DNA of 38,198 nt, from NCBI GenBank assembly GCA_017937885.1, contig JAGBCS010000013.1, positions 1 through 38,198 on the forward strand. Direction: 5' to 3'. Of this stretch, positions 20,329-38,198 are shown piece by piece. Position numbers and translations under genes: made by a program. The notes below the pieces were generated by a model. The model was not told where the DNA came from and did no database searches. It saw nothing but the letters and a program-made list of their open reading frames with translations. This stretch comes from Bacteroidales bacterium (GTDB lineage: Bacteria > Bacteroidota > Bacteroidia > Bacteroidales > UBA932). The first letter of the stretch is position 1, and every line of letters starts with the position of its first letter.

Positions 20329-21249
20329 ATGAAGAAAGAATTCAAGGAAACGGTCGTCCTATGGAAGGCCGACAAGGAACCGTATGTAAAGAAGTCGACG
20401 TTCGCAGCATACTCACTCATCATCGAGAATCACCTCTTGCCGTCCTTCGGCCGCCATTCAGAAATAACGGAAGAAGATGTCCAGGATTTCGTCATACGAA
20501 AGATCAGACAGGGACTCAGCAACAAAAGCGTCAAAGACATTCTGGTCGTGCTGAAGATGATTCTCAGCTATGCTGACAAGCATGGGATGATGAAATACCC
20601 CAGATTCGATATCCGCTACCCGGCAGAAGCGGACAGGCAGGAGATCGAAGTACTCAGCAAGGCGGACCAGAAGAAGCTTATGGCCAAGCTGAAGGAACAG
20701 TTTTCATTCAGGAACATGGGCATCCTCATCTGCCTGAGTGCAGGCTTGAGAATCGGTGAGATATGTGCCCTGACGTGGGATGACCTCGATATCGAAAGGG
20801 GCATAATAAAAGTGACGAAGACCATCCAGAGGATCTATCTGGTCGACGGCAAGGAGCGGCATACAGAACTGATGATAGACCGAGCGAAGACAAGGAATTC
20901 GATAAGGGAAATTCCCATGGCCAGAGAGCTCAAGTCAATCATACGTCCTTGGAAAAAGATCGTGAACGGATCGTTCTACATATTGTCGAACAGTCCGAAT
21001 CCTATGGAGCCTCGGAGCTACCGGAACTATTACAACCGTCTGCTTGACAACCTGGGAATCCACCGCCTGAAGTTCCACGGGCTGCGCCACAGCTTCGCCA
21101 CCCGATGCATCGAAAGCAAATGCGACTACAAGACAGTCAGCGTCCTGCTGGGACATTCGAAGATAAGCACGACACTCGACCTGTACGTCCACCCGAACAT
21201 GGACCAGAAGCGTCTATGCGTCGAGCAGATGTTCAAGGCACTCAAATAG
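20329..21249 (+). CDS. Tyrosine recombinase / site-specific integrase
   Basis: A 306-residue integrase of the phage-integrase family. The N-terminal SAM-like core-binding domain covers about 1-100 and the catalytic domain about 105-306. All catalytic residues are present: R141 (AGLRIGE), K187 (RAKTRNS), H250 and R253 with H254 (KFHGLRHSF), H276 (LLGHSKI) and the nucleophile Y286 (LDLYVHP). It therefore looks active. No phage or conjugation genes, tRNA or clear att repeats are next to it, so it is either a solitary recombinase (shufflon or invertase type), a remnant of an island, or a XerCD-like housekeeping relative. A TATATTTA element around 20279-20286 and a 6-bp inverted repeat (20286-20291 and 20305-20310) precede the start. 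Its 3' end overlaps the convergent gene at 21214-21765 by 36 bases. Confidence 0.92.
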   Translation: MKKEFKETVVLWKADKEPYVKKSTFAAYSLIIENHLLPSFGRHSEITEEDVQDFVIRKIRQGLSNKSVKDILVVLKMILSYADKHGMMKYPRFDIRYPAEADRQEIEVLSKADQKKLMAKLKEQFSFRNMGILICLSAGLRIGEICALTWDDLDIERGIIKVTKTIQRIYLVDGKERHTELMIDRAKTRNSIREIPMARELKSIIRPWKKIVNGSFYILSNSPNPMEPRSYRNYYNRLLDNLGIHRLKFHGLRHSFATRCIESKCDYKTVSVLLGHSKISTTLDLYVHPNMDQKRLCVEQMFKALK

Positions 21250-26156: not shown

Positions 26157-28166
26157 TTAAAGGCCGCGGCCACGAAGGAGAGCTCCTGAGTCAGGATCAG
26201 CTCCACGGAAGCGTCTGTAGAGGACCATCGGTTCCTCGCTTCCACCCATCTCGAGGACATTGCGACGGAAAGACATTGCAGTCTCCTTGTCGTAGATTCC
26301 CTTCTGCATGAAGAGTTCGAATGCGTCCTTGTCAAGCACCTCTGCCCAAAGATAGCTGTAATATCCGGCGCTGTATCCGCCGCTGAAGATATGAGCGAAA
26401 TAAGTGCTGCGGTAGCGTGGGATGATCTCGTCTATAAGTCCCATATCCTTGCAGGCCTGAGCCTCGAAAGCCATCGGATCAAGTCCCTCTACGCTGTCAA
26501 GCATATGCCACTTGAGGTCGAGGAGCGATGCGGCCGCAAGCTCTGTGGTCATGAAGCCCTGATTGAAGGTTCCGGCAGCCTCGATCTTGGCCACAAGAGA
26601 GTCAGGAATGACTGCACCTGTCTCATAATGACGGGCATAGTCTGCAAGAACATCCTTCTGGAATGCCCAGTTCTCCATGATCTGTGAAGGGAGCTCGACG
26701 AAGTCACGAGCGACTGAAGTACCGCTCACGCTCTTGTATGTACACTTGCTGAGAAGGCCGTGAAGGGCATGACCGTACTCATGGAAAAGAGTCTCGACGT
26801 TGTCAAGAGAAAGAAGGGACGGCTTGCCGTCTGAAGGCTTTGCAAAGTTGCCTACATTCACGATTACAGGGCGGATGTCCTTACCCTCTGCATTGACCTC
26901 CTGGTTCACGAAATTAGTCATCCAGGCTCCGCCTCTCTTCGTGCTGCGAGGGAAGTAGTCTGTCATGATGACACCGATGAGCGAGCCGTCAGCATCAGTC
27001 ACCTTGAAGCCCTCTACCTCCGGATGATATACAGGAATGTCCTCAAGCTTCTCATACTGAAGGCCGAAGAGCTTGGTCGTAAGGTCGAAGACGCCCTGAC
27101 GAACATTCTCCATCTGGAAATATGGCTTCGTCTGCTCCTCGTCGAGAGCGTACTTAGCCTTACGTACCTTTTCCGCGTAATATGCCCAGTCCCATGGCTC
27201 AATCTCACTTCCCTCAGGAAGAAGACCAGCCTTGATATCCTCGTTCATGATCTGCTGCATGTCTGCGATCTCTGCCTTTGCCTTGGCTACCGCAGGTTCC
27301 ATAAGGCCTGAAAGGAAGGTATCCACAGCCTCAGGAGTGCCGGCCATCTTGTCATGGAGAATCATATGGGCAGGAGTCTCGTAACCGAGAAGCTTCGCCT
27401 TCTCTATGCGGAGAGCCATGATCTTGACGATAAGGTCCTTGTTGTCATATGCATTGCCGTTGTTGCCTCTTGAAGCATAAGCCTTGAACATCTTCTCTCT
27501 GAGAGCGCGGTCTTCTGTAGAAGCCATTGCCTCAGGATACTCTGAGATCGAAAGACCGAACTCCTCGGCAAAGGCGTTGTTCTCCGCAAGGAGGTTGTTG
27601 CCGAAGGTGTTTGCAAGAGATGAAAGCTCCATGTTGATCTCGCGCATGCGTGCCTGCTCAGCCTCACCAAGTGCGATACCGTTGTTCACGAATGCGTCAT
27701 AGAGTTTCTTGAGGGCCATCTTCTGCTCCTGATTCAGTCCAAGGTTGTCGATGTCCTTATAGAGTTTCTCCACCTTGGCGAAGAAATATGGGTTCATGAA
27801 GATATTGTCGCTGTGCTCCGACATCATCGGAAGAACCTCCTCGACGATCTTCTGGAGAGACTCTGTCGCATCTGACTCGGAAACGTTGAAAAGCACCATT
27901 GTCACACGGTCGAGGATGGCGCCGGAACGCTCGTATGCAACGACAACATTCTCGAAAGTAGGAGCCTCGGAATTGGCGATGATCGCATCGATCTCGCTCT
28001 GCTGCTGGAGAATACCCATCTCAACAGCCGGTACATAATGTTTTTCCTTGATCTGCTCGAAATCTGGAATTCCATACGGAGTATCCCACTCGGTAAGGAA
28101 AGGATTGATCCTGTTGCAGGAAACTGCTGCCATAATAACAGTCAAAATAAGTAAGATTCTTTTCAT
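26157..28166 (-). CDS. dcp: M3 family zinc peptidase, peptidyl-dipeptidase Dcp type, lipoprotein
   Basis: A 669-residue oligopeptidase that removes C-terminal dipeptides from short peptides. The zinc site is HEYGH at 462-466 with the third ligand E491 in FVELPSQIMENW. The C-terminus (RRFRGADPDSGALLRGRGL) is diagnostic for Dcp within M3. Unlike cytoplasmic Dcp it begins with a lipoprotein signal (lipobox AAVSC, C17), so it acts in the envelope. It lies 22 bases after the DUF5689 lipoprotein and is probably the last gene of the minus-strand operon, ending at the 36-bp palindromic terminator. Whether it belongs functionally to the nuclease/receptor locus (for example, trimming peptides from nucleoprotein) or is only a neighbour is unclear. 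Confidence 0.93.
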   Translation of the reverse strand: MKRILLILTVIMAAVSCNRINPFLTEWDTPYGIPDFEQIKEKHYVPAVEMGILQQQSEIDAIIANSEAPTFENVVVAYERSGAILDRVTMVLFNVSESDATESLQKIVEEVLPMMSEHSDNIFMNPYFFAKVEKLYKDIDNLGLNQEQKMALKKLYDAFVNNGIALGEAEQARMREINMELSSLANTFGNNLLAENNAFAEEFGLSISEYPEAMASTEDRALREKMFKAYASRGNNGNAYDNKDLIVKIMALRIEKAKLLGYETPAHMILHDKMAGTPEAVDTFLSGLMEPAVAKAKAEIADMQQIMNEDIKAGLLPEGSEIEPWDWAYYAEKVRKAKYALDEEQTKPYFQMENVRQGVFDLTTKLFGLQYEKLEDIPVYHPEVEGFKVTDADGSLIGVIMTDYFPRSTKRGGAWMTNFVNQEVNAEGKDIRPVIVNVGNFAKPSDGKPSLLSLDNVETLFHEYGHALHGLLSKCTYKSVSGTSVARDFVELPSQIMENWAFQKDVLADYARHYETGAVIPDSLVAKIEAAGTFNQGFMTTELAAASLLDLKWHMLDSVEGLDPMAFEAQACKDMGLIDEIIPRYRSTYFAHIFSGGYSAGYYSYLWAEVLDKDAFELFMQKGIYDKETAMSFRRNVLEMGGSEEPMVLYRRFRGADPDSGALLRGRGL

Positions 28167-28188: not shown

Positions 28189-29229
28189 TTATTTGTTTAC
28201 CTTGACACCGTCGAGGTCTATCAGAGTGAACTGAGACTCCCCGTCATATTCTGTAAGGATGCCTGTGAAGTCTACGGTAGCCTTGCCTGCCAGCACATCC
28301 GGATCGATCTGCTCGTCAGAGAAGCGGCAGAAACCGCTTGATCGGACCTGTACCGATGACTTTCCCATCTTGAAGTACTGGCTCACGGCATATGCCGTAG
28401 GGATGATCGAATATGTGCCGTCCGGATTCTTGAATTCGCTGACCTTCCTGGAGTCATCCTGAAGGGCTGCGTCGTCAAAGTTTCCGGCTTCGAGATAGCT
28501 CTTGAAAAGAGTCTCGGACATAGCCCATGTGGTAACACCCCAGTTGGTCGGCTCCTGATCATAGTCGGTCGAGATGAAGATACGGTTGGTCGCAGCCTTC
28601 TTCGCCTCGCCGGAAAGGTTCGGATTCACATAGATCAGGCAGAATATCTCGTTGCCGTAAGTAAGTCCCTTGATGGTCACCAGACGTCCGAGATTCGACT
28701 TCTTCCTGAGATCAGCCTCAGTGATCGTCACCGGCTCGACCGGATCATCATAAGGTCCCTTGAAGACATGCGTGTCGATGATTGAGGAATGTTCCATATA
28801 CGAAGTCTCGTACTCCCCTGTCGGATCACTGTATCCTATCTGGATCATGCCGTTATAGTCACCTACGGTCAGACCTTCACAATCCACATATATCCACTGC
28901 CCCAGTCTGTATTCGTTATAAAGGCCGTTCTTGCCGATCTTGACTTCTATGCCGGCTGTCTCGTCCTGGATGTACAGGCTCTTGTATAGGTTGCCCACCT
29001 TGTCTGATGTCGTCACCTGGCCTGCGATCACCACATTACCTGTAATGGTTATCGGCTTCCTGCCGTTTGCCGTATACATATCCTTGAGCTCGGAGATTGT
29101 GACGGTAGCCTTCATCTCCACCGGCTCGACATATTCCGGATCATCATACTGGCCTGTGAAGACCGGCTGGAACTCCTCGCATCCCGCGAGAAGGGCCATA
29201 GCCAATAGTATTGTAGATATCTTTTTCAT
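28189..29229 (-). CDS. DUF5689-type OB-like surface lipoprotein
   Basis: A 346-residue lipoprotein: signal peptide with lipobox LLAGC (C17), followed by an acidic stretch typical of Bacteroidota surface-exposed lipoproteins. Residues about 40-135 (ATVTISELKDMY, ITITGNVVIAGQVTT, NLYKSLYIQDETAGIEVKIGKNGLYNEYRLGQWIYVDCEGLTVGDYNGMIQIGY) follow the DUF5689 pattern. That pattern resembles the OB-fold module of the Bacillus nuclease YhcR (strand, IQDETGGI-like hairpin, VGD-like turn). A second OB-like segment lies at about 170-330. Its ATG overlaps the stop of the TonB-dependent receptor by one base, so it is probably made in a fixed ratio with the receptor, as SusD is with SusC. It is not SusD-like. 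I infer a ligand-binding partner of the receptor. Confidence 0.82.
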   Translation of the reverse strand: MKKISTILLAMALLAGCEEFQPVFTGQYDDPEYVEPVEMKATVTISELKDMYTANGRKPITITGNVVIAGQVTTSDKVGNLYKSLYIQDETAGIEVKIGKNGLYNEYRLGQWIYVDCEGLTVGDYNGMIQIGYSDPTGEYETSYMEHSSIIDTHVFKGPYDDPVEPVTITEADLRKKSNLGRLVTIKGLTYGNEIFCLIYVNPNLSGEAKKAATNRIFISTDYDQEPTNWGVTTWAMSETLFKSYLEAGNFDDAALQDDSRKVSEFKNPDGTYSIIPTAYAVSQYFKMGKSSVQVRSSGFCRFSDEQIDPDVLAGKATVDFTGILTEYDGESQFTLIDLDGVKVNK

Positions 29230-32192
29230 TAGAATCTGAAATAGAGGTTCAACATATAGTTAAAGCCCTGCATGTAGAAGTACTTCGAGTCAAACCTGTA
29301 ATACCTCTCGCAGCTCTTGCTGTCGATCAGACGTGTCTGCTCGTATCCTCCTGTCTTGACGGCCTTGTTGTTGGTGATGTTCTGAAGATTCAGAGAGAAG
29401 CCGAAATTGTACTTGCGGTTGATATACCACGACTTGCCGATGCTCGCATTGAGGACGAACATAGGATCGAACTTCTCCTGAGCCGTCATGTACTCTACCT
29501 CGACAGGAGTGATGATTCCGTCCGGTCCGGCCACAGCCATATCGGTCCTGTAAAGAGGGTTCATGTCAAGATATGAGTTTGCAAAGTACTGTGCATCAAG
29601 CTCGAAGAACCAGTAAGAGTTAGTACGGTAACTGAGACCGAGATCCGCAGCAAACTGAGGTGTCGACGGTACGTAATGCTTGTTGTATCCCACCACGACA
29701 GGATTTCCGTTCTCGTCGTAGTCATAGCTGACTTCGCCGTTGATTTCAGTCTTGCTGTATACAGGAGCCGAAGCCCAGTAAGGCACCATCTGATTGTCGA
29801 AGATCACCTCGGCGCTGTTGTCAACGGTCTGCGTCATGCGCGGAGTAGAAGTATAGATATACTCACCCCAGCTGAGCGCTCCCTGAAGCGATAGGTTCTT
29901 CACGAAGAACGGTACGCTGAAACCGAGCTCCATACCCATATGCCTCTGGTCAATGCCGCTCATGGCGAAGTTGGTGAATGAGTTCTGCGAGTCATCGTAG
30001 AAGCTCATCATGTCGGTCTGGTCCTTGATCTTGGTATAGAATCCCGTCACACGGACGTTGTATCCGTTGCTGCTGTACTGGTAGTTGAGATCAGCAGACA
30101 TGGTCTTCATCGTCTCCAGATTTGGCACGAGAGAATTCCTCGTACGAGGAGAGATGAAAGACTGAGCGAATGTAGGGGCGTCGTTGAAATAGCCAGCATT
30201 AGCATAGATACGGTGGCCTCCCGTGATCTGGTACTGAAGACCGAGCTTCGCAGAATAAGTCAGGAAGTCCGCGATTTCGGAATTGCCCTTCGAGGTGATC
30301 GGCTTGAGTTCGCCGTTCACCTTCTCATAGGTCGTGAGGACCTGGCCGTTATAGACGAATTCACTTCCGTCGTCATTCAGACCGGCAAACATACCCTTAC
30401 GCACAAGACCTTCCCTCCAGAACTTCACATAGCCCCCTTCGAGCGCAAGATTCGCCTTGAAGGCACCGAGATCCCAAGCACCGTTCGCCCAGACATTTGC
30501 ATTACGGACATGTGCATAATAGTCATATCCGTACTTGTCGCCTTTGTAAAGGGTCTGGGCCTGGCCGTACCTGATATAGTAATCGAGGTCGTTCTGGACC
30601 ATGGCAGGAGACGACGCGAAATCACGCTCCGCGAACTGGTCTATGTTCATGTAGTATTCGCCGCCGAGCAGATCGTCAAGTCTCTTGTAGTACTCTGTAC
30701 GGTTCCACTTGTAGGTCACTCCGCCGGTAAGGGTGAATGCCCTGCTTGCCGTCCATTTCAGGCTGGCGTTGAGGTTGATGTCGTTCTGGTCGACGCGACG
30801 CTCCTCGATGACGTACTTCGAACGAAGATATCCGGCATCGTCATAGCTGTTGTAGTTGACGTTATAGAGACGGTCCCAGTTGATGTGAGCGTATTCCGGG
30901 ACGTCATTCTCCCATGCATCCTTCGCCCAGAAGTACTTCTCCCTGTTCTGACGGTTGTAGTCCTCGTCCTCCATCCAGAAATAGCTCGGGAGATTGCGGT
31001 AATAGTCAGGACGCGGATCCGGTGCATCATACCAGTCAAGAGCGGTATAGCCGTTCTTTCCGGTACGCCAGAGAAGGGTTGCGGATGCCTCAAGGTCATC
31101 GTTCGGCGTCGCCGTATACTTGAGTATCGTCACAGGCTCGAAGGTCTTGCGGACACGCGCGTTACGTACCTTGCCGTTCTGATATCCCCAGTTGCTGTTG
31201 TACATGTTGTCGCCCATCAGGTCATAGACCTCCTGGGTCGATGCGTTCTGCGCTCCTCGCTGTCCCGGAGCCGCAAAGGTGATCAGGCTTATGCGGTGCT
31301 CGTCACCGATCTTCTTCTCCACTCCTGCATAATATGCGAAGTTGCGGTAGTAAACTCCCTTCACCCAGTCGTTTCCACCGAGACGCGCTGACACGTTGAA
31401 CGCATATGACCATCCGTTGTCAAGTTCGCCCGACGCATAGCTTGCCATAAGGCGGAGACGGTAGAGCGCACTGTTGGAAAGGGCGCTGAAACGCCAGCCG
31501 GTGCGGACGCTTGAAGGATTCGCATGGATATTGGTCACACCGTTGTAGCCTCCGAAACCGTAATCGGAAACCTCGTTTCCGATAGTCGTCTCCTTGCTTC
31601 TCATCGCCTCATTGAGACCGCTCCAGAGCGAATACGGCGAATATCCCGTTATCGCGTCATTCATCCTGATGCCGCTCAGGTACACATCCTGCGATTCGCT
31701 GGTGTAGCCTCTGTTCTTGAAGCGGACGTTGCTGAAGCCGAAGCTGACGATCTCGTTGTAAGGGTCATTCGTTCCGAAAAGAATGGTCGGTGTATCATCG
31801 TATCCCGAATCATCCATATCGAATTCTGCAAAGCTTGAGTCATCGACGTCATCCACCACCTGTTCCGCAACCATGCCGACAAAGATCAGGTCCTTGACAT
31901 AGCCTTCGATGGTAACGTTCACATGAGCTTCCAGAAAGCCCGGCGCACTTATCGTCATGTCGTACATGCCGTTCGGCATGTCATCGATGAGGAACTTTCC
32001 CTCAGCATCAGACACTGTCTGTGCCACGGTCTCGCCGCTCTGTGAAAGAACGACCGTCGCCTCTGCAATCGGCGCCCTGCCGGCACGGTTGACCACAGTA
32101 CCCTTGACGCCTCCCCAATCGCCTGATTGAGCGACAAGGGCAGAAGTGCACAGCAGCACAGCCGCAATTGTCAGTAATATCTTCTTCATCAT
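29229..32192 (-). CDS. TonB-dependent outer-membrane receptor with carboxypeptidase-regulatory-like domain
   Basis: About 987 residues. A signal peptide (KKILLTIAAVLLCTSALVAQ) is followed by a carboxypeptidase-regulatory-like beta domain (about 25-110, VKGTVVNRAGRAPIAEATVVL, YDMTISAPGF) and an acidic hinge rich in Asp. A plug domain then leads into a 22-strand-type barrel that is very rich in Tyr, Asn and Trp. The chain ends in an aromatic-terminated strand (LNLYFRF), as outer-membrane barrels do. It imports ligands across the outer membrane using TonB. There is no SusD partner; instead a DUF5689 lipoprotein gene overlaps its stop by one base, and exported nuclease and EEP genes lie directly upstream. 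The frame opens at 32207, but the first codons fall within an intergenic repeat; the Met at 32192 (or 32189) begins a normal signal peptide. Confidence 0.92.
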   Translation of the reverse strand: MMKKILLTIAAVLLCTSALVAQSGDWGGVKGTVVNRAGRAPIAEATVVLSQSGETVAQTVSDAEGKFLIDDMPNGMYDMTISAPGFLEAHVNVTIEGYVKDLIFVGMVAEQVVDDVDDSSFAEFDMDDSGYDDTPTILFGTNDPYNEIVSFGFSNVRFKNRGYTSESQDVYLSGIRMNDAITGYSPYSLWSGLNEAMRSKETTIGNEVSDYGFGGYNGVTNIHANPSSVRTGWRFSALSNSALYRLRLMASYASGELDNGWSYAFNVSARLGGNDWVKGVYYRNFAYYAGVEKKIGDEHRISLITFAAPGQRGAQNASTQEVYDLMGDNMYNSNWGYQNGKVRNARVRKTFEPVTILKYTATPNDDLEASATLLWRTGKNGYTALDWYDAPDPRPDYYRNLPSYFWMEDEDYNRQNREKYFWAKDAWENDVPEYAHINWDRLYNVNYNSYDDAGYLRSKYVIEERRVDQNDINLNASLKWTASRAFTLTGGVTYKWNRTEYYKRLDDLLGGEYYMNIDQFAERDFASSPAMVQNDLDYYIRYGQAQTLYKGDKYGYDYYAHVRNANVWANGAWDLGAFKANLALEGGYVKFWREGLVRKGMFAGLNDDGSEFVYNGQVLTTYEKVNGELKPITSKGNSEIADFLTYSAKLGLQYQITGGHRIYANAGYFNDAPTFAQSFISPRTRNSLVPNLETMKTMSADLNYQYSSNGYNVRVTGFYTKIKDQTDMMSFYDDSQNSFTNFAMSGIDQRHMGMELGFSVPFFVKNLSLQGALSWGEYIYTSTPRMTQTVDNSAEVIFDNQMVPYWASAPVYSKTEINGEVSYDYDENGNPVVVGYNKHYVPSTPQFAADLGLSYRTNSYWFFELDAQYFANSYLDMNPLYRTDMAVAGPDGIITPVEVEYMTAQEKFDPMFVLNASIGKSWYINRKYNFGFSLNLQNITNNKAVKTGGYEQTRLIDSKSCERYYRFDSKYFYMQGFNYMLNLYFRF

Positions 32193-32202
32193 ATTCTTAA
32201 AT

Positions 32203-32226
32203 GTCATCTCGACCGAAGCCGAGAGT
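32203..32226. repeat. Short interspersed-type repeat between the EEP and receptor genes
   Basis: The sequence GTCATCTCGACCGAAGCC followed by GAGAGT contains a 5-bp inverted repeat (TCTCG/CGAGA). It resembles the GTCAT-TTCGACCG-AG family of short dispersed repeats that I associate with many Bacteroidota genomes. Only one copy was noticed in this window, so the assignment rests on memory of the motif rather than on copies seen here. Confidence 0.4.
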
Positions 32227-32229
32227 CTT

Positions 32230-33312
32230 CTATTTGCTGATTACAATATAAGTCGGATAATGGTCACTGTAGCCTCCTATGAAGGCGCCATTCGAGAAAG
32301 TACGGTAAGGAGTACCCTTGTACTGTCCCTTCTGGTTGGTCAGGAACTTCTTCTTGTACACATGACCATGATAGCCCTTCTTTCCGAGAGGAGTTATCTT
32401 AAGACCTCCGTCCGGTGCGTTCGCAAGAGCATTGTTGACAAGCAGGAGGTCATATATGCTCCATACACCGCGATATGCCAGAGAACCGTGACCATCCTTG
32501 AGCATCTCGATGAACGGGCTGTAGAAGTCCTTGTCCGTCACGTCTTCGATATTCTCCTTTCCATGGAGATACTCCGCCATGCTCGGGTCGGTCGGATTGT
32601 CGTTCATGTCACCCATGCAGACGATCTTGATGCCAGGATACTTCTTCTGCATCATCATCGCATGGTCATACATGATCTCGCCGCCACGGTCGCGAAGCTG
32701 ATTGCTTCCCTTCTTGTCTCCGGCGCGGGACGGAAGATGCGCGACATATATCGCAAAGTGCTCACCGTCAATGAGTCCATGCACCATGAGGATATCTCTG
32801 GTCTTGAAATAGTCCTGTTCGCTCTCTGACATCACGAAATCAATCGAACTGCCTTCGAAGGTATACGGGATAGACTCGCTGTCGAGATACTTGAACTGCT
32901 TCGGGTTATACAGGAGGGCCACATCGACGCCTCTTCTGTCCGGACCGTCATAATGGATGATCTGATAATTTGCATCTGCTATCTGCGGATCCGCGACGAG
33001 ATCCTCAAGCACAAGACGGTTCTCGATCTCGCTCACGCCGAGAAGCGTATGGTAACGGCCGTTGTCGTTTGCCATTTCCTTGATGACCTTGGCCATGTTC
33101 GAGACCTTCTTCTGGTATTTAACCTCAGTCCATTTGTTGGCACCGTCAGGCAGGAACTCGCCATCGTTCTTGACCGGATCGTCATAAGTGTCGAACAAGT
33201 TCTCGAGATTATAAAATCCGATCACATATGCCCTTTCGCCCTGCTGGGCGCATGCGCTCAGACAGAATGCCACAAGGGCTGTAAGGATAATTGCTATCTT
33301 TTTCATTTTCAT
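32230..33312 (-). CDS. Exported endonuclease/exonuclease/phosphatase (EEP) family lipoprotein
   Basis: A 360-residue member of the DNase I/exonuclease III/sphingomyelinase fold. The active-site set is complete: N35 (FYNLENLFD), E95 (GVSEIEN), the substrate-contact segment YDGPDRRGVDVALLY, H192 (AHLPSR), D235 and N237 (GDMNDNP), and D350-H351 (YSDHYP). It is exported through a signal peptide with lipobox LSAC (C21). The fold cuts phosphodiester or phosphomonoester bonds, so DNA, RNA, nucleotides or phospholipid head groups are all possible. Its position 11 bases after a DNA/RNA non-specific endonuclease gene and 37 bases before the receptor favours nucleic acid or nucleotides. A start two residues later (second Met) is equally possible. 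Confidence 0.92.
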   Translation of the reverse strand: MKMKKIAIILTALVAFCLSACAQQGERAYVIGFYNLENLFDTYDDPVKNDGEFLPDGANKWTEVKYQKKVSNMAKVIKEMANDNGRYHTLLGVSEIENRLVLEDLVADPQIADANYQIIHYDGPDRRGVDVALLYNPKQFKYLDSESIPYTFEGSSIDFVMSESEQDYFKTRDILMVHGLIDGEHFAIYVAHLPSRAGDKKGSNQLRDRGGEIMYDHAMMMQKKYPGIKIVCMGDMNDNPTDPSMAEYLHGKENIEDVTDKDFYSPFIEMLKDGHGSLAYRGVWSIYDLLLVNNALANAPDGGLKITPLGKKGYHGHVYKKKFLTNQKGQYKGTPYRTFSNGAFIGGYSDHYPTYIVISK

Positions 33313-33323
33313 TGAGTTTCAGA

Positions 33324-34553
33324 TTACCACCACAAAGACAGAGATGCAGGATCCTGAGATTCGATCTTTGCCGCCTGGTCATCTCCCAGCTTTGCCGGCA
33401 GATTCACGAACAGATCAAGATCGAGGATTTCCTCAAGCTCATCGATGGACATCACTGCCTCGTGAGTCTTCGTTATGTTCGCCTCAGCATCCTTATATGC
33501 CCTGTGCTCCAGATAGAACGCCGCTCCGGACCATTTGCTGATGGTAGAAGCCTTGTGATATCTTACGAGAGCCTTGTAATAGGCTACCGGAACAGTCATC
33601 TTCTTTCCGTCAGAGTCCTCTGTAAAGATCTTGCTTCCCTCCACGACACAGCCTGTGATGACATAAGTCGTATCGGAAGTATTCGCCCATGTACGGACCT
33701 GGTTCTCGAGATTGGCCCAGACGCCTTCATTATGGGCATTGAGCTGAGGTGTCAGATTCGTGCCATAGAAAGTCTGTTCGTTTGCCTCGCGGCAGCACAG
33801 ACGGTCTGCCGACGGCAGCTGATGGCCGCGGGCATAGCTTCCTCCGTAACCGCCGAAAGGTGCCGACGAATATTCGGATCCGAGAAGCGGGTCATAATCC
33901 CATTCATCCGTCCTGCTCACAGTCTTGTTCGTATACATCTTGCACAACGGATACGCCACCCATAAGGCCACAAGGTCATTCTGACTCCAACCGAAGGTGT
34001 AGTTCCTGTATGTGCTTCCGTTCATTTCGAAGCTATGACTGTAATATCCGAGATCCGGATTGTCCATGGCAGGAAGCTCCAGCCAATCGGTATTGGAAAC
34101 CTCCGGCGTAGGAGTCGGTTCTGGTTCCGGTTCTGGTTCTGGTTCCGGCTCGGGATCCGGCTCGGGATCCGGCTGTGGTTCCTGAGCGGCCGCAGCCTGC
34201 GTCATTGAACAGGACACCCACTTCGAACCGTTGTCAAGCACAACGGAAAGCATGCGGTCCTTGCCGGTAGTATTCTCCTTATAAGTCAGGACTACATCCG
34301 CATTGCCTTGCCCGGAAGCCATGCTCAGAGAAGCCCAGTCCATACCGTTGCTGTCTCCGGTCAGGCCGATAGTCCAGCTGCCGCTGCATCTGACAGTGAC
34401 AAACTGCGCTCCGGATGTGGCAGGTACCGAAGTCGATACAAGAGATATCTCCAGCACGCTGTCCTTGACAGGCTTTTCGCAAGAGGTCACAAACAAGGCG
34501 CAGATGGCCAGGACGGCCACTGCAACCTTGCATATTGAAGACTTCATCATCAT
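33324..34553 (-). CDS. DNA/RNA non-specific endonuclease lipoprotein with BACON domain
   Basis: A 409-residue surface or periplasmic lipoprotein (lipobox VTSC, C25). A BACON-type Ig-like domain (about 31-118) and a Pro-Glu repeat linker (about 125-150) lead to a beta-beta-alpha-metal nuclease domain of the NucA/Serratia family (about 155-400). Aligned to Serratia nuclease, H244 (general base, RGHQ), N275 (metal ligand, AHNEGVW) and E283 (NLENQ) are present with the correct 8-residue N-to-E spacing. R242 is also kept. The Asp that usually precedes RGH is Ala (ARGH). Flanking PSADR and FYGTNLTPQ are family-typical. The start overlaps the previous stop by one base, and the EEP gene follows after 11 bases. 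It is predicted to degrade DNA and RNA outside the cytoplasm. Confidence 0.92.
   Translation of the reverse strand: MMMKSSICKVAVAVLAICALFVTSCEKPVKDSVLEISLVSTSVPATSGAQFVTVRCSGSWTIGLTGDSNGMDWASLSMASGQGNADVVLTYKENTTGKDRMLSVVLDNGSKWVSCSMTQAAAAQEPQPDPEPDPEPEPEPEPEPEPTPTPEVSNTDWLELPAMDNPDLGYYSHSFEMNGSTYRNYTFGWSQNDLVALWVAYPLCKMYTNKTVSRTDEWDYDPLLGSEYSSAPFGGYGGSYARGHQLPSADRLCCREANEQTFYGTNLTPQLNAHNEGVWANLENQVRTWANTSDTTYVITGCVVEGSKIFTEDSDGKKMTVPVAYYKALVRYHKASTISKWSGAAFYLEHRAYKDAEANITKTHEAVMSIDELEEILDLDLFVNLPAKLGDDQAAKIESQDPASLSLWW
34117..34173. repeat. Short tandem repeat encoding the Pro-Glu linker
   Basis: Six-base units (GGTTCT/GGTTCC) and two 12-base CTCGGGATCCGG units, read on the minus strand as alternating Pro-Glu and Pro-Asp codons. 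Changes in unit number would alter linker length without breaking the reading frame. Confidence 0.7.
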
Positions 34554-36679
34554 TACTCTGTATATACAGCGATGCTCTTGATATATACTGCAGCCGCTGT
34601 CAAGGTCCAGTTCAGCTCAATCGCCCCTGAAGCCGAGCCCTCAAATGTATAATCTGCAGCTGAATTGGTTGTCTGGATCGAAGAGCCGAAATTCTCGCCG
34701 CCGACCTTGACTACAAGTGTGGCATCTGTACCGGAAGCGCCGGATGTATTGATCACGATCTTCTTGACCGTTCCGGAGATTCCCGAAGTAGACAAGGTGA
34801 TCGATGAAGCCGGATCTGCCTTCTTGCCCATCTGCAGGCCACGTCCGTTAGAGCTGTCCCATCCGAGATAGTCAGCGTCATTCATCACAAAAGACCATTC
34901 GATGCCATTCAATGTGACAGAACTGCTGAGGTTTCCTGTCGTTCCCAAATCGCCTTCGGCAAACGTATATGCCCATGTCGCGTCAGAAACATCGCCATTT
35001 TCATCATTTCCTCCTTCCCCTGGAACATGGCTGATGTAGTAAGCCGGAACTGCGCTTCCGCCACCCTGAGGCGAGCCGTTGTATTCGCCGCGAAGAGTAC
35101 CGATGGTGACAGTGTCACCTACCTTGAGGCCGATGCTGTCGAAAGACTTGTCATTGTATCCGACCCAACCGTTTGTGAGGCCGTAGATGTACACTTCACC
35201 AGTGCCGTCGTTTATGTAGAGATTGCCGTATGCGTTGCCTGAAACTATGGAAGTGATCTCTCCTGTGAGTTCATACCATACGTCTGAGCTCACCTCGGCT
35301 GCGAGGAACTCTTCCACAGTAGCCTTGGTCAGACTTGCCGGCTTGCCTGATTCGTCGTTTCCCGGATCATTTCCCGGATCGCCGCTGCCTGGGGTAAAAC
35401 TTTCAATATATGCTTCGAGGACTTCGATCTTGCCATTGTAGTCACCGCGCTGGCCGACAACGGTAACGGTGCCTCCCTCTGCAAATATAGAAGAATATTC
35501 AGACCAGTTTGAAATGCCATATACATATACTTTACCTGTCTCATCGATAAGGTCAAAGTTGCCATATGTCATATTAACCGGTCCTCCGACAGTTCCGGAA
35601 AGCCTATACCAGTCAGATGTGCTGACAGGCTTCTCGTTGAACTCCGCTACAGTCACATCCGTGATGTTTGACGGCGGTGTCACAGGCTCACCTGAAGAGC
35701 TTCCGCCCGCAGTGAAATCCATCTCCTTCGCAGCAGAGAAATCGACAGCGGTTCCCTGCTTGTCGGAAATGACGAGCTTGAGGTCATCCATTCTGTATGA
35801 GCTTGCCACATCTACAGCCATGCAGACAGAAAGAGTCTCTGTGCCTGCAGGCACGCTGAAGTTTGCAGAAGCCACATTCCAGCGTCCCTCCGTAGTACCT
35901 CCTGCGAATGTATAGTCCTTAAGCTCCACCCACTTCTCGCCATCGTTGCTGAGATATACGTGGAACTCTGAATTTGTGAACACGCTTCCGTTGTCCTGTG
36001 AATACTTCTCAGTACCGAAAGTCAGTTCGAAGCTTGTCGCATCTCCTAGAGCGATGCCTTTAGTCGCAAGATATGCGCTCTTTCCGAAGAACATGTTGTT
36101 CATTCCGGAACCGGCATAGTCCGAATAGTTGCTGTCAGATGTCGAATTCGCACGTGCAGACATTCCGCTATAGTTGTAAGTCACTGAAGCTGCGCCTGTT
36201 CCGGTCTGGTTCATCCAGCCGTCGAACAGGTCGAGATAAGGCCAGCTTCCGCCGCTTGATCCATACGATTTAGTCGCTTCCTCCTTGTCGAAGTCATTGA
36301 AGAAGACGATAAGCTGCTCTGCAGAGCCGCCCGGACCCGCCTGAACGACCTTAAGATACTTGCTTGTCATGCCGATGGTGAACTTCACCTCGACCTCGCG
36401 GTCCATGCCGTCATTAGGAAGGACCGTAAGGACCACATCCTGAACGACTGACGAGGCTGTTCCCTCATTCGGAGAGACTGCCAGCCAGTCCGCATTCTCT
36501 TCCACAGCCCAGTCACGGGTAGCGACTACTGTTATGGTACGACTTCCGCCATCCTTGTCGAAAGCCAGTTCACTTTCGCTGAGTGCAATCTTCGGGGTTC
36601 CGAGATTCTCCTCCATCTCGCATGCGGTCATGAACCCGACAGCTGCGAGCGCGCCAATGAGTAAATTTCTCAATTTCAT
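34553..36679 (-). CDS. BACON / double OB-fold surface lipoprotein
   Basis: A 708-residue lipoprotein (lipobox MTAC, C20). In order: a BACON Ig-like domain (about 28-113, ending VVQAG), a beta-rich jelly-roll-like module (about 122-305, FFNDFDKEEATKSYG, FHVYLSNDGEKWVELKDY), two DUF5689/YhcR-type OB-like repeats (about 340-428 and 451-552), and a C-terminal beta-sandwich (about 565-708, TWAYTFAEGDLG). The OB units show the pattern YRLSGTV, YGNFDLIDETGKVYVYGI, VTVVGQRGDYNGKIEV and its counterpart. No catalytic motif is seen, so it is probably a binding protein. It is the first gene of the operon, with its own promoter, and its stop overlaps the nuclease start by one base. A paralogue with the same OB pair lies directly upstream. 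Confidence 0.85.
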   Translation of the reverse strand: MKLRNLLIGALAAVGFMTACEMEENLGTPKIALSESELAFDKDGGSRTITVVATRDWAVEENADWLAVSPNEGTASSVVQDVVLTVLPNDGMDREVEVKFTIGMTSKYLKVVQAGPGGSAEQLIVFFNDFDKEEATKSYGSSGGSWPYLDLFDGWMNQTGTGAASVTYNYSGMSARANSTSDSNYSDYAGSGMNNMFFGKSAYLATKGIALGDATSFELTFGTEKYSQDNGSVFTNSEFHVYLSNDGEKWVELKDYTFAGGTTEGRWNVASANFSVPAGTETLSVCMAVDVASSYRMDDLKLVISDKQGTAVDFSAAKEMDFTAGGSSSGEPVTPPSNITDVTVAEFNEKPVSTSDWYRLSGTVGGPVNMTYGNFDLIDETGKVYVYGISNWSEYSSIFAEGGTVTVVGQRGDYNGKIEVLEAYIESFTPGSGDPGNDPGNDESGKPASLTKATVEEFLAAEVSSDVWYELTGEITSIVSGNAYGNLYINDGTGEVYIYGLTNGWVGYNDKSFDSIGLKVGDTVTIGTLRGEYNGSPQGGGSAVPAYYISHVPGEGGNDENGDVSDATWAYTFAEGDLGTTGNLSSSVTLNGIEWSFVMNDADYLGWDSSNGRGLQMGKKADPASSITLSTSGISGTVKKIVINTSGASGTDATLVVKVGGENFGSSIQTTNSAADYTFEGSASGAIELNWTLTAAAVYIKSIAVYTE
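35024..35659 (-). repeat. Double OB-fold repeat unit, copy 1
   Basis: Coding segment for two consecutive OB-like domains. It is strongly similar, in protein and DNA, to copy 2 at 37328-37951; for example both encode GEVYIYGLTNGWVGYND, then KSFDSIGLKVGD. Third-codon differences are frequent while residues are kept, which implies selection on the protein after duplication. Confidence 0.85.
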
Positions 36680-36740
36680 GATTGTAAGTATAAAAATGTT
36701 TATCTCTATTGCTTATGTTTCAACACACATAATGAACTTA

Positions 36741-36771
36741 CAAAAATAATAAAAGTAGGAAAATATCCAAT
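36741..36771 (-). promoter_or_regulatory. Promoter for the lipoprotein-nuclease-receptor operon
   Basis: On the minus strand ATTG (36771-36768) is followed after 19 bases by TATTTTTG (36748-36741), a good fit to the Bacteroidota promoter with one mismatch in the -33 box. The leader to the ATG at 36679 is about 55 bases, A/T-rich and without a clear Shine-Dalgarno sequence. Confidence 0.65.
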
Positions 36772-36788
36772 GAATAAGGCAAAAAATA

Positions 36789-36812
36789 GCCGGCGGCCAA
36801 ATGGCCGCCGGC
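36789..36812 (-). terminator. Intrinsic terminator after the truncated BACON/OB gene
   Basis: A perfect 10-bp GC-only stem (36789-36798 with 36803-36812) around a 4-base loop is followed, in the minus-strand direction, by TATTTTTT. It lies 27 bases past the stop of the gene at 36839-38198 and before the next promoter, so the two paralogues are on separate transcripts. Confidence 0.88.
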
Positions 36813-36838
36813 AGTATCGCAAAAGCTATGTTTCTCCA

Positions 36839-38198
36839 CTACTTTGTTTCCGTTACCGGCACAAGAGTCGGAAGAACATTTGTGAATGTATCCACATATG
36901 GGTCTGCAAGCTCCCATGTACCCCAATTAGGAGACCAGCATATCGAAAGAAGAGTAGCTACGTTGTATATGTCGAGAGATGTATCGTCATATGAGTCTAC
37001 ACACCACATATAGAAACCGCATTCTTCTTCATTATCAGGGAGCTCCGTAGCAACATTAAATGAAGTGTAAGGTGTTTCACCATCGGACTTGAGAGCATTG
37101 TAAAGATACCTTCCGTAGGAATCCTGGATTGTATATCCTCCGAAGTCCGGATAGAACTGGAACGTGAATGCATCAGCTTCAGTCACGGATGCGGCATCCA
37201 CAGATGGAATATAACCGTAAGACTTGTCGGCAGAGAGAGCTGTAGCCACCTTATCTCCTGCCACGATAAAGTACTTGCCGTTTGCAAATGGTCCATCCTC
37301 TCCCGGAACAGGCGCATAAGATGATTCGTGGCTTATGTAGTAAGCAGGGAAGGAACTTCCGCCGCCCTGAGGCGTACCTTTGTACTCGGAGCGGAGAGTA
37401 CCGAGAGTGACAGTATCGCCTACCTTAAGGCCTATGCTGTCAAAAGACTTGTCATTATAGCCTACCCAGCCGTTTGTAAGGCCGTAGATGTAGACTTCGC
37501 CTGTACCGTCGTTGATATAGAGATTTCCATATGCATTGCCTTCTACGATAGAGGTAATCTCACCTGTAAGCTCATACCAGACTTCTGTGCTGACCTCTGC
37601 TGCGAGGAAGTCTGCGACAGTCGCCGCGATGAGTTCTGACGGTCTTCCGTCTGAAGGTTCGTCGTCACCGGTATCCTCGCCCGGCTCATAATACTCAATA
37701 TATCCTTCAAGGACCTCGACCTTACCGTTGTAGTCGCCACGCTGACCGACAACAGTCACCGTTCCGCCAACTGCAAATATTTCAGAATAGTCCGACCAGT
37801 TCGAAATGCCGTACACATAGACGGTGCCGGTCTCGTCGATGATGTCGAAATTGCCATAGATCGCGTTGATAGGACCTCCGACTGTTCCGGTAATCCTGTA
37901 CAAATGATCTGTGCTGACCTCCTCCTCGATGAATTCGGCTACAGTGACATCGATAATTCCGTCATCATATGAGTAGTTGCCTTCCTGACATACGGTAACA
38001 TATACAGAATGACCCTCAACATAGAACCATACATCTCCATACCTTTCGTATGCTTCTTCATTCGGAAGGACAGAGATTGTTACAGGCTGTGCCTCGGAAG
38101 AGCCCCAGCCGGAAGAAGGAGAGACAGTGATCCAGTCCTCATAAGTCTCTGCATACCAATCTGCTGTAGAAGCAAGAGCCAAAGTGAATTCTCCGCCT
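36839..38198 (-). CDS. BACON / double OB-fold surface protein, 5' part outside the window
   Basis: The reading frame stays open to the right edge, so the N-terminus (and any lipoprotein signal) is missing. The visible part is about 452 residues. It begins inside a BACON domain (GGEFTLALASTADWYAE, ITVSPSSGWGSSEAQPVTISVLPN, ending VTVCQEG). Two OB-like repeats nearly identical in pattern to those of the downstream paralogue follow. The C-terminal domain of about 150 residues (GPFANGKYFIVAGDKVATAL, YTIQDSYGRYLYN) differs from the paralogue and resembles the beta-trefoil-like carbohydrate/ligand-binding tails found on Bacteroidota surface proteins. No enzyme motif is seen. It ends at an intrinsic terminator. 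A TTG at 38182 could be mistaken for a start, but the BACON sequence continues upstream of it. Confidence 0.85.
   Translation of the reverse strand, partial: GGEFTLALASTADWYAETYEDWITVSPSSGWGSSEAQPVTISVLPNEEAYERYGDVWFYVEGHSVYVTVCQEGNYSYDDGIIDVTVAEFIEEEVSTDHLYRITGTVGGPINAIYGNFDIIDETGTVYVYGISNWSDYSEIFAVGGTVTVVGQRGDYNGKVEVLEGYIEYYEPGEDTGDDEPSDGRPSELIAATVADFLAAEVSTEVWYELTGEITSIVEGNAYGNLYINDGTGEVYIYGLTNGWVGYNDKSFDSIGLKVGDTVTLGTLRSEYKGTPQGGGSSFPAYYISHESSYAPVPGEDGPFANGKYFIVAGDKVATALSADKSYGYIPSVDAASVTEADAFTFQFYPDFGGYTIQDSYGRYLYNALKSDGETPYTSFNVATELPDNEEECGFYMWCVDSYDDTSLDIYNVATLLSICWSPNWGTWELADPYVDTFTNVLPTLVPVTETK
37328..37951 (-). repeat. Double OB-fold repeat unit, copy 2
   Basis: Second copy of the two-OB coding unit, in the same orientation as copy 1 at 35024-35659 and about 2.3 kb away. 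The regions flanking it (BACON spacing upstream, C-terminal domain downstream) differ between the two genes, so the OB pair behaves as an exchangeable module. Confidence 0.85.

Follow-up and report, generated by a model that had tools for sequence, protein, structure and literature searches.

The window, which is the whole 38,198-nucleotide stretch of contig JAGBCS010000013.1 from a Bacteroidales bacterium (GCA_017937885.1, UBA932), contains a minus-strand operon of five packed genes that may well serve in DNA uptake. The first gene (34553..36679) encodes a 708-amino-acid protein with a BACON domain and two OB-like units, a lipoprotein by its signal peptide. It is followed by genes for a NucA/Serratia-type DNA/RNA non-specific endonuclease, also a lipoprotein by its signal peptide (33324..34553, 409 amino acids), an exported enzyme of the EEP superfamily (Exo_endo_phos_3; 32230..33312, 360 amino acids), a TonB-dependent-receptor-like outer-membrane barrel with an N-terminal CarboxypepD_reg domain (29229..32207, 992 amino acids), and a DUF5689 lipoprotein (28189..29229, 346 amino acids). 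A preliminary description of the window had named these five genes, and the open reading frames (ORFs) are present, with the families as named there by Pfam. In the order of transcription, the BACON/OB and nuclease genes overlap by 1 base, 11 bases separate the nuclease from the EEP gene, 22 bases (37 from an internal start) separate the EEP gene from the receptor, and the receptor overlaps the DUF5689 gene by 1 base.

A second gene for a BACON domain with two OB-like units (36839..38197, minus strand) is cut by the end of the window. The ORF is present as first described, and its membership in the operon is doubtful, as it lies 159 bases upstream and behind a strong, terminator-like hairpin (36812-36789, minus strand) of 10 G-C pairs followed by TATTTTTT. 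Because this hairpin intervenes, the second gene is probably on its own transcript, and transcription of the operon probably begins with the first BACON/OB gene. Between the two BACON proteins (34553-38197), the OB units share 77 of 112 and 89 of 102 aligned residues, so the second gene is probably a recent tandem duplicate of the first.

The families of the receptor pair are clear in part. PF13620 was found in the receptor (1.7e-14). Its barrel match reached 25.6 bits, just under the cut-off of 27, and a plug domain was not matched in Pfam. A profile built from the receptor matched a solved SusC homolog in the N-terminal domain only. The DUF5689 protein matched PF18942 (1.8e-45). It consists of DUF5689 only and lacks the DUF5017/choice-of-anchor J part that can follow at the C-terminus. 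DUF5689 proteins lacking this part are also present in other Bacteroidales, and the need for it is not established.

The nuclease matched PF01223 (6.3e-30) and possesses the active-site residues of the NucA/Serratia family. RGHQ, N266, and E283 are invariant across 11 aligned sequences, and the closest solved chain is Anabaena NucA (2o3b, E=6.7e-33). Its N-terminus is BACON-like (PF13004 at 0.0031, below the cut-off), and a Pro-Glu linker is present. The EEP enzyme has the full PF19580 domain (8.1e-91) with the conserved motifs of Exo_endo_phos_3, and it is a possible lipoprotein by its LSAC, as judged by eye. The model for ExeM/NucH extracellular endonucleases, NF033681, was matched by 5 of 13 aligned EEP proteins (best 1.4e-8), and the window's EEP gave no match to it. 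The Riemerella EEP reaches 22 bits to this model, for which the curated cut-off is 300.

In the first BACON/OB lipoprotein, the BACON domain was identified through PF13004 (2.1e-9). The OB units have no significant Pfam match, with RMI2 (0.0025) and OB_Dis3 (0.072) both under the cut-off. A profile of 14 BACON/OB homologs weakly matched the OB part of RPA32 (E=0.013). That these units bind nucleic acid, as first proposed, is still a supposition. The lipoproteins are acidic, with isoelectric points (pI) of 4.05-4.51, and searches of the PDB with them returned no convincing nucleic-acid-binding relative. A relationship between DUF5689 and the BACON/OB proteins was also considered and rejected, as the profile-profile comparison aligned the signal peptides only and direct alignments of the OB units with DUF5689 were weak.

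The arrangement of these genes was explored in close relatives. The receptor was searched in 61 genomes, including the window's own, and a match at E<=1e-20 was found in 38. Among the 36 genomes of the same genus, 25 have a strong match, and one other (G018) has only a short divergent one. The neighbourhoods of 26 strong loci from these 25 genomes were read, with a neighbour defined as lying within 4.5 kb of the receptor. All 26 have EEP and DUF5689 genes, 25 have the NucA-type gene, and 24 have the BACON/OB gene, arranged and oriented as in the window. One genome (G026) has two copies of the operon on different contigs, C49 and C59 (L055 and L057), either through duplication or from a mixed bin.

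Named relatives are mostly Bacteroidales metagenome-assembled genomes (MAGs) from gut and rumen. The best 80 of at least 576 confirmed stretches were read, and these represent the closest part only. Within 4.5 kb of the receptor, EEP is found in 77 of the 80 and DUF5689 in 79. A NucA-type gene is found in 77 (76 upstream and 1 downstream of the receptor) and a BACON/OB gene in 71 (70 upstream and 1 downstream on the other strand). Where EEP, the NucA-type gene, or DUF5689 is missing, the contig ends there, and in the nine loci that show no BACON/OB gene, less than 3.7 kb of sequence lies upstream of the receptor. The conserved synteny that the preliminary description had called for was thus found. 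The ratio of nonsynonymous to synonymous substitution rates (dN/dS) is 0.09-0.26 in nine of ten gene pairs between the window and its relatives, a rough figure since dS exceeds 1.2 in all pairs; in the tenth, the BACON/OB pair with L035, dS is saturated. Conservation is strongest in the receptor and EEP (dN/dS 0.07-0.12, rough). Chance does not explain the arrangement, because it recurs in the 26 same-genus and 80 named loci and dN/dS is low.

A smaller part of the operon is conserved across the phylum. In a sample of 296 genomes, including the window's own, a receptor match at E<=1e-30 was found in 95, and a strong match, defined as full-length and above 600 bits, in 45 (own included). Another genome (G282) has its strong match in two pieces, and all 46 belong to the window's class. 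Of the 44 strong matches in the 295 other genomes, 32 loci were read, with one large genus thinned. DUF5689 is the next gene in 31 of these, and in 27 the EEP gene directly adjoins the receptor, 25 times divergently and twice in the same orientation. Of the five loci with no adjoining EEP, L093, L095, L109, and L122 have unrelated genes there and L112 ends with its contig. The NucA-type gene is present in two of the 32 only, both of a family labelled f26 here. Eight further loci (L023-L030) come from the window's order and fall within the receptor clade described below. The EEP gene is divergent beside the receptor in five of them, two end with the contig there, and L029 has neither EEP nor DUF5689. 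The pairing of receptor and DUF5689 is therefore widely conserved.

A receptor tree of 66 rows was made with a quick method, with support from the Shimodaira-Hasegawa-like approximate likelihood ratio test (SH-aLRT) only. In it, 58 receptors, including those of the window and of Riemerella, form one clade (SH-aLRT 100). The 16 rows with a NucA-type gene form one set, and L044, a same-genus locus that has no such gene, falls inside it. Eight distant matches (L031-L033 and L123-L127) lie outside the clade of 58 and, from their scores and tree positions, were treated as paralog-like. The branches of L121 and L124 are long, L124 may be joined falsely to the 58 rows, and six rows have odd composition.

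The Riemerella locus is the one for which genetics has been reported. A screen of 3000 insertion mutants of Riemerella anatipestifer found 16 genes (PMC8459023). Two genes proved essential: RA0C_RS04915, which encodes a PF13620 barrel, and RA0C_RS04920, which encodes DUF5689 and DUF5017 parts. Unmarked deletions of these brought transformation below detection (PMC8459023). Binding and transport of DNA by the pair were proposed in a model that its authors marked as speculative, homologs in Flavobacterium were listed, and homologs were stated both to be widespread in Bacteroidetes and, for the barrel, to be present only in Flavobacteriaceae (PMC8459023). Mutants in tonBA or tonBB had lowered transformation, and the tonBA mutant had no iron-uptake defect (PMC8383284).

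The locus was located here with a published comEC primer of R. anatipestifer (PMC8383284), allowing up to 2 mismatches. Two of 36 small genomes of family f29 (G405 and G418) matched, both exactly, and the second comEC primer is present in both loci. Because of this primer match, f29 is regarded as the family of Riemerella, and the two genomes are taken as Riemerella, either R. anatipestifer or a close sister species. The locus in G405 (L139) contains comEC, a 145-amino-acid ORF, a carboxyl transferase, and EEP, followed in the opposite direction by the receptor and DUF5689. This order fits the tags RS04895 to RS04920, and EEP would be RS04910 if the tags are assigned by order. By BLASTP, the receptors of the window and Riemerella are 28% identical over their full lengths (338 bits, E=4e-105), the DUF5689 proteins 31% over 213 columns (E=1e-17), and the EEP enzymes 30% (E=1e-59). 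By these alignments, the barrel, DUF5689, and EEP of the window are homologous to neighbouring Riemerella genes, a link that is new here. As in Riemerella, the window has a PF13620 barrel of the Riemerella clade with a DUF5689 lipoprotein directly downstream. The ComEC protein of L139 (6405-8213) has DUF4131 and Competence domains and no nuclease-domain match, and the genus is reported to be transformable.

The position of EEP beside this pair can possibly be connected to the fate of the second DNA strand. EndA of Streptococcus pneumoniae degrades the non-transforming strand, and almost half of ComEC proteins have no C-terminal nuclease domain, which makes the degradation of the second strand in such cases an open question (PMC8579336). 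A nuclease of the NucA fold in Moraxella was reported as a competence entry nuclease (PMC6384898). A metallo-beta-lactamase match was found in 0 of 12 ComEC proteins scanned (E up to 0.1, 1, and 0.5), and the long forms could hold a degenerate domain. Because EEP adjoins the uptake pair and the scanned ComEC proteins have no such match, EEP is a candidate for the strand-degrading nuclease where ComEC has no recognisable nuclease domain. The presence of the NucA-type gene was also compared with the loss of the nuclease domain from ComEC. This link was not upheld, because two f26 genomes have that gene along with long ComEC proteins and because none of the 12 had a metallo-beta-lactamase match. 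In a separate genome of the window's class (G175, 2.0 Mb), the ComEC match (C1:162198-162944) has two internal stop codons; the receptor, DUF5689, and EEP are kept there (L098).

Taken together, the operon is somewhat more probably than otherwise an outer-membrane DNA-uptake module that has been extended with surface nucleases. The analysis established the gene content and its conservation, the shared clade of the receptors, and that EEP and DUF5689 have homologs in the Riemerella locus; the need for the receptor and DUF5689 genes in transformation was demonstrated by others, for Riemerella. Nucleic acid is well supported as the substrate. On the best reading, the extension, an entry-type nuclease and an OB lipoprotein, belongs to the Rikenellaceae/Cryptobacteroides branch. 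The BACON/OB and DUF5689 lipoproteins would keep DNA at the cell surface, and the NucA-type lipoprotein would cut it and make ends, like an entry nuclease. The DUF5689/receptor pair, powered by TonB, would move the DNA across the outer membrane. EEP, either on the surface or in the periplasm, would trim the DNA or degrade one strand, and a periplasmic protein with helix-hairpin-helix (HhH) matches, together with ComEC, would carry the DNA onward. We infer each of these steps, as well as the same working in the window's lineage. A broader proposal is that uncultured gut Bacteroidales of the Rikenellaceae/Cryptobacteroides branch import DNA through the TonB-driven barrel and DUF5689, that EEP, a common neighbour of this pair, removes the second strand when a nuclease domain cannot be recognised in ComEC, and that in this branch the surface entry nuclease helps. 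This proposal as a whole is tentative and rather doubtful.

A number of observations weigh against a role in DNA uptake, beginning with the remaining competence genes. In favour of uptake, the window's own genome encodes DprA, a NamZ/DUF1343 protein, the core of ComEC, and an ORF product in which HhH is matched twice. These are near-ubiquitous (DprA in 56 of 61 genomes, ComEC in 59 of 61, HhH in 24 of 25, and NamZ in 24 of 25), so their presence discriminates little. The core genes are also present in G056, which has no HhH match, and in G041, which has no NamZ match. ComEC in the window's genome lies on another contig (G000:C2:14635-15390; L229:2160-3272, minus strand), has 370 amino acids with the Competence core, and gave no DUF4131 or metallo-beta-lactamase match. 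In the genus, 35 of 36 genomes plus the window's own have a ComEC match, with frames of at most 417 amino acids (core). Of the 24 other genomes of the order, 20 have ComEC frames of 527-771 amino acids, three have shorter ones, and G038 has none. Eleven same-genus copies, including the window's own, end at about the same place, which suggests that the short ComEC is a settled form in the genus. G038 is 99% complete and possesses the receptor, DUF5689, and EEP (L027) with no ComEC match, and an assembly gap is possible there.

Other points on this side concern the proteins themselves and the Riemerella genetics. All proteins of the window's operon are acidic (pI 4.05-5.58), unlike the basic receptor and EEP of Riemerella (pI 8.66 and 9.16). 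The residues after the lipobox cysteine of the window's lipoproteins (EEFQ, EKPV, and EMEE) are acidic, and they match neither of the published surface signals, K-(D/E)2 or Q-A-(D/E)2 (PMC5080379), exactly; the surface location of these lipoproteins is thus a supposition. The 16 genes hit in the screen of PMC8459023 do not include EEP, taken by order as RS04910. The Riemerella DUF5689 protein, with its DUF5689 and DUF5017 parts, matches the NCBIfam lipoprotein model M949_1556 above the cut-off of 475 (599 bits; the window's protein reaches 57), and a gene called M949_1556 has been cited for effects on lipopolysaccharide, antigenicity, and pathogenicity. Because of this match, its transformation phenotype could be indirect, through the outer membrane. 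Flavobacterium johnsoniae showed no competence in the conditions of one study (PMC7965970), even though homologs are listed for Flavobacterium in PMC8459023. The paralog-like receptors L033 and L127 also have a DUF5689 match downstream, so the pairing is wider than the clade of 58 receptors. In G018, one locus (L034; C24, 6169-11833) keeps EEP and the nuclease with a divergent 542-amino-acid receptor-like ORF and no DUF5689. The nuclease there is NucA-type; BACON is matched twice in it, and an OB-like insert is visible by eye. Lastly, the literature searches returned no experiment on the window's lineage and no transformation shown for it.

The operon could instead be a nutrient system, in which extracellular DNA and RNA are digested by surface nucleases and the products, oligonucleotides or nucleosides, enter through the receptor as sources of carbon, nitrogen, or phosphorus. 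Feeding is a possible role, and less supported than DNA uptake for transformation. Two nuclease-family genes share one operon with a receptor, the named relatives are mostly from gut and rumen, and 5 of the 13 aligned EEP proteins, not including the window's, match the ExeM/NucH model. G038, with the core genes and no ComEC match, also fits. In the literature, Lutibacter, a member of the Bacteroidota, took up DNA carbon, Bacteroidota MAGs contain secreted nucleases (PMC8289736), and transformation of R. columbina was raised by phosphate restriction (PMC7965970). However, the five genes include no nucleotidase, phosphatase, or nucleoside transporter, except for EEP, whose family includes phosphatases. 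In f29, the receptor is matched at E<=1e-100 in 240 of 246 genomes (the query's own included), a NucA-type gene is near none of the 10 loci read, and the tested role of the core pair in that family is transformation (PMC8459023). The making or importing of oligonucleotides or nucleosides as food, which the preliminary description had proposed, is therefore not specifically supported, since the genetics of the homologs points to DNA of transforming length. Its view of a nucleic-acid system that has no SusD, with DUF5689 as the partner of the receptor, fared better, as no SusD-family domain was found, the Riemerella homologs are needed for transformation, and the pairing is conserved.

A Sus-like polysaccharide-utilisation locus, with the nucleases incidental, is highly unlikely. 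CarboxypepD_reg and BACON domains occur in such loci, and the BACON profile finds the corresponding part of a GH16 enzyme (3.4e-15). However, the genes include neither a SusD family member nor, above the cut-off, any glycoside hydrolase or lyase, and the candidate was set aside for these reasons. The receptor's likeness to a SusC homolog is also limited to the N-terminal domain, and nuclease-family neighbours are present in 77 of the best 80 named loci. It is likewise improbable, if very slightly less so, that the operon is a surface barrier against DNA, for example of biofilms or incoming DNA, with uptake lost in the window's lineage. The reduced ComEC of the genus would agree with this, as would L034, where the nucleases persist beside a short receptor-like ORF. 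Against it, the receptor and EEP are the best conserved parts, which is at odds with lost uptake.

Outside the operon, the next gene downstream of DUF5689, after a 22-base gap, encodes a Dcp-like peptidase of family M3 (26157..28166, minus strand). It has a lipoprotein-like signal and is found downstream of DUF5689 in many same-genus loci, and it is possibly co-transcribed with the operon. An ORF on the plus strand (20329-21249) resembles a tyrosine recombinase/integrase by eye. The promoter scan of the window gave no excess over shuffles (11 vs 10.9), and no tRNA or Rfam matches were found in the window.

The passage of DNA through the outer membrane has been little studied in Bacteroidota. 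The barrel, DUF5689, and EEP are now found in Bacteroidales too, commonly as one module, and EEP is a concrete candidate for the second-strand question posed in PMC8579336. If DNA uptake is the true role, the operon bears on gene transfer in gut and rumen communities. Literature searches covered later work on the Riemerella system, competence in Bacteroidetes that involves TonB-dependent receptors, and feeding on nucleic acid with TonB; with most subscription papers and preprints outside the scope, no title or abstract described the five genes together. In the papers searched, DUF5689 and the two RA0C tags appeared in PMC8459023 alone. That paper already describes the receptor/DUF5689 core, so the earlier statement that such a locus has no established name holds apart from this core.

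The operon can be compared with several known systems. The putative DNA-degradation loci of Izemoplasmatales also have extracellular nucleases located together with import genes, whereas the import there is by ABC transporters with phosphohydrolases, and the likeness is by description only (PMC8289736). With SusC/SusD systems, the operon shares a TonB-dependent-receptor-like barrel with an N-terminal CarboxypepD_reg domain and a partner lipoprotein; it differs in having no SusD-family domain and no carbohydrate enzyme above the cut-off. The entry nucleases, pneumococcal EndA and Moraxella NucM of the bba-metal fold (PMC6384898), agree with the window's nuclease in family, intact catalytic residues, and export signal. 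The window's nuclease differs in that it is a lipoprotein with a BACON part and shares its operon with an outer-membrane receptor, and its role in uptake is putative. The Riemerella locus has a divergent EEP gene and, at 3.7 kb from the receptor, comEC; across the 19.9 kb read it contains neither a NucA-type nor a BACON/OB gene. The window's five genes all run in one direction, and the ComEC of its genome is core-only and on another contig. In both, however, the homologs of the pair RA0C_RS04915 and RA0C_RS04920 are adjacent and in the same order, with the EEP homolog next to them.

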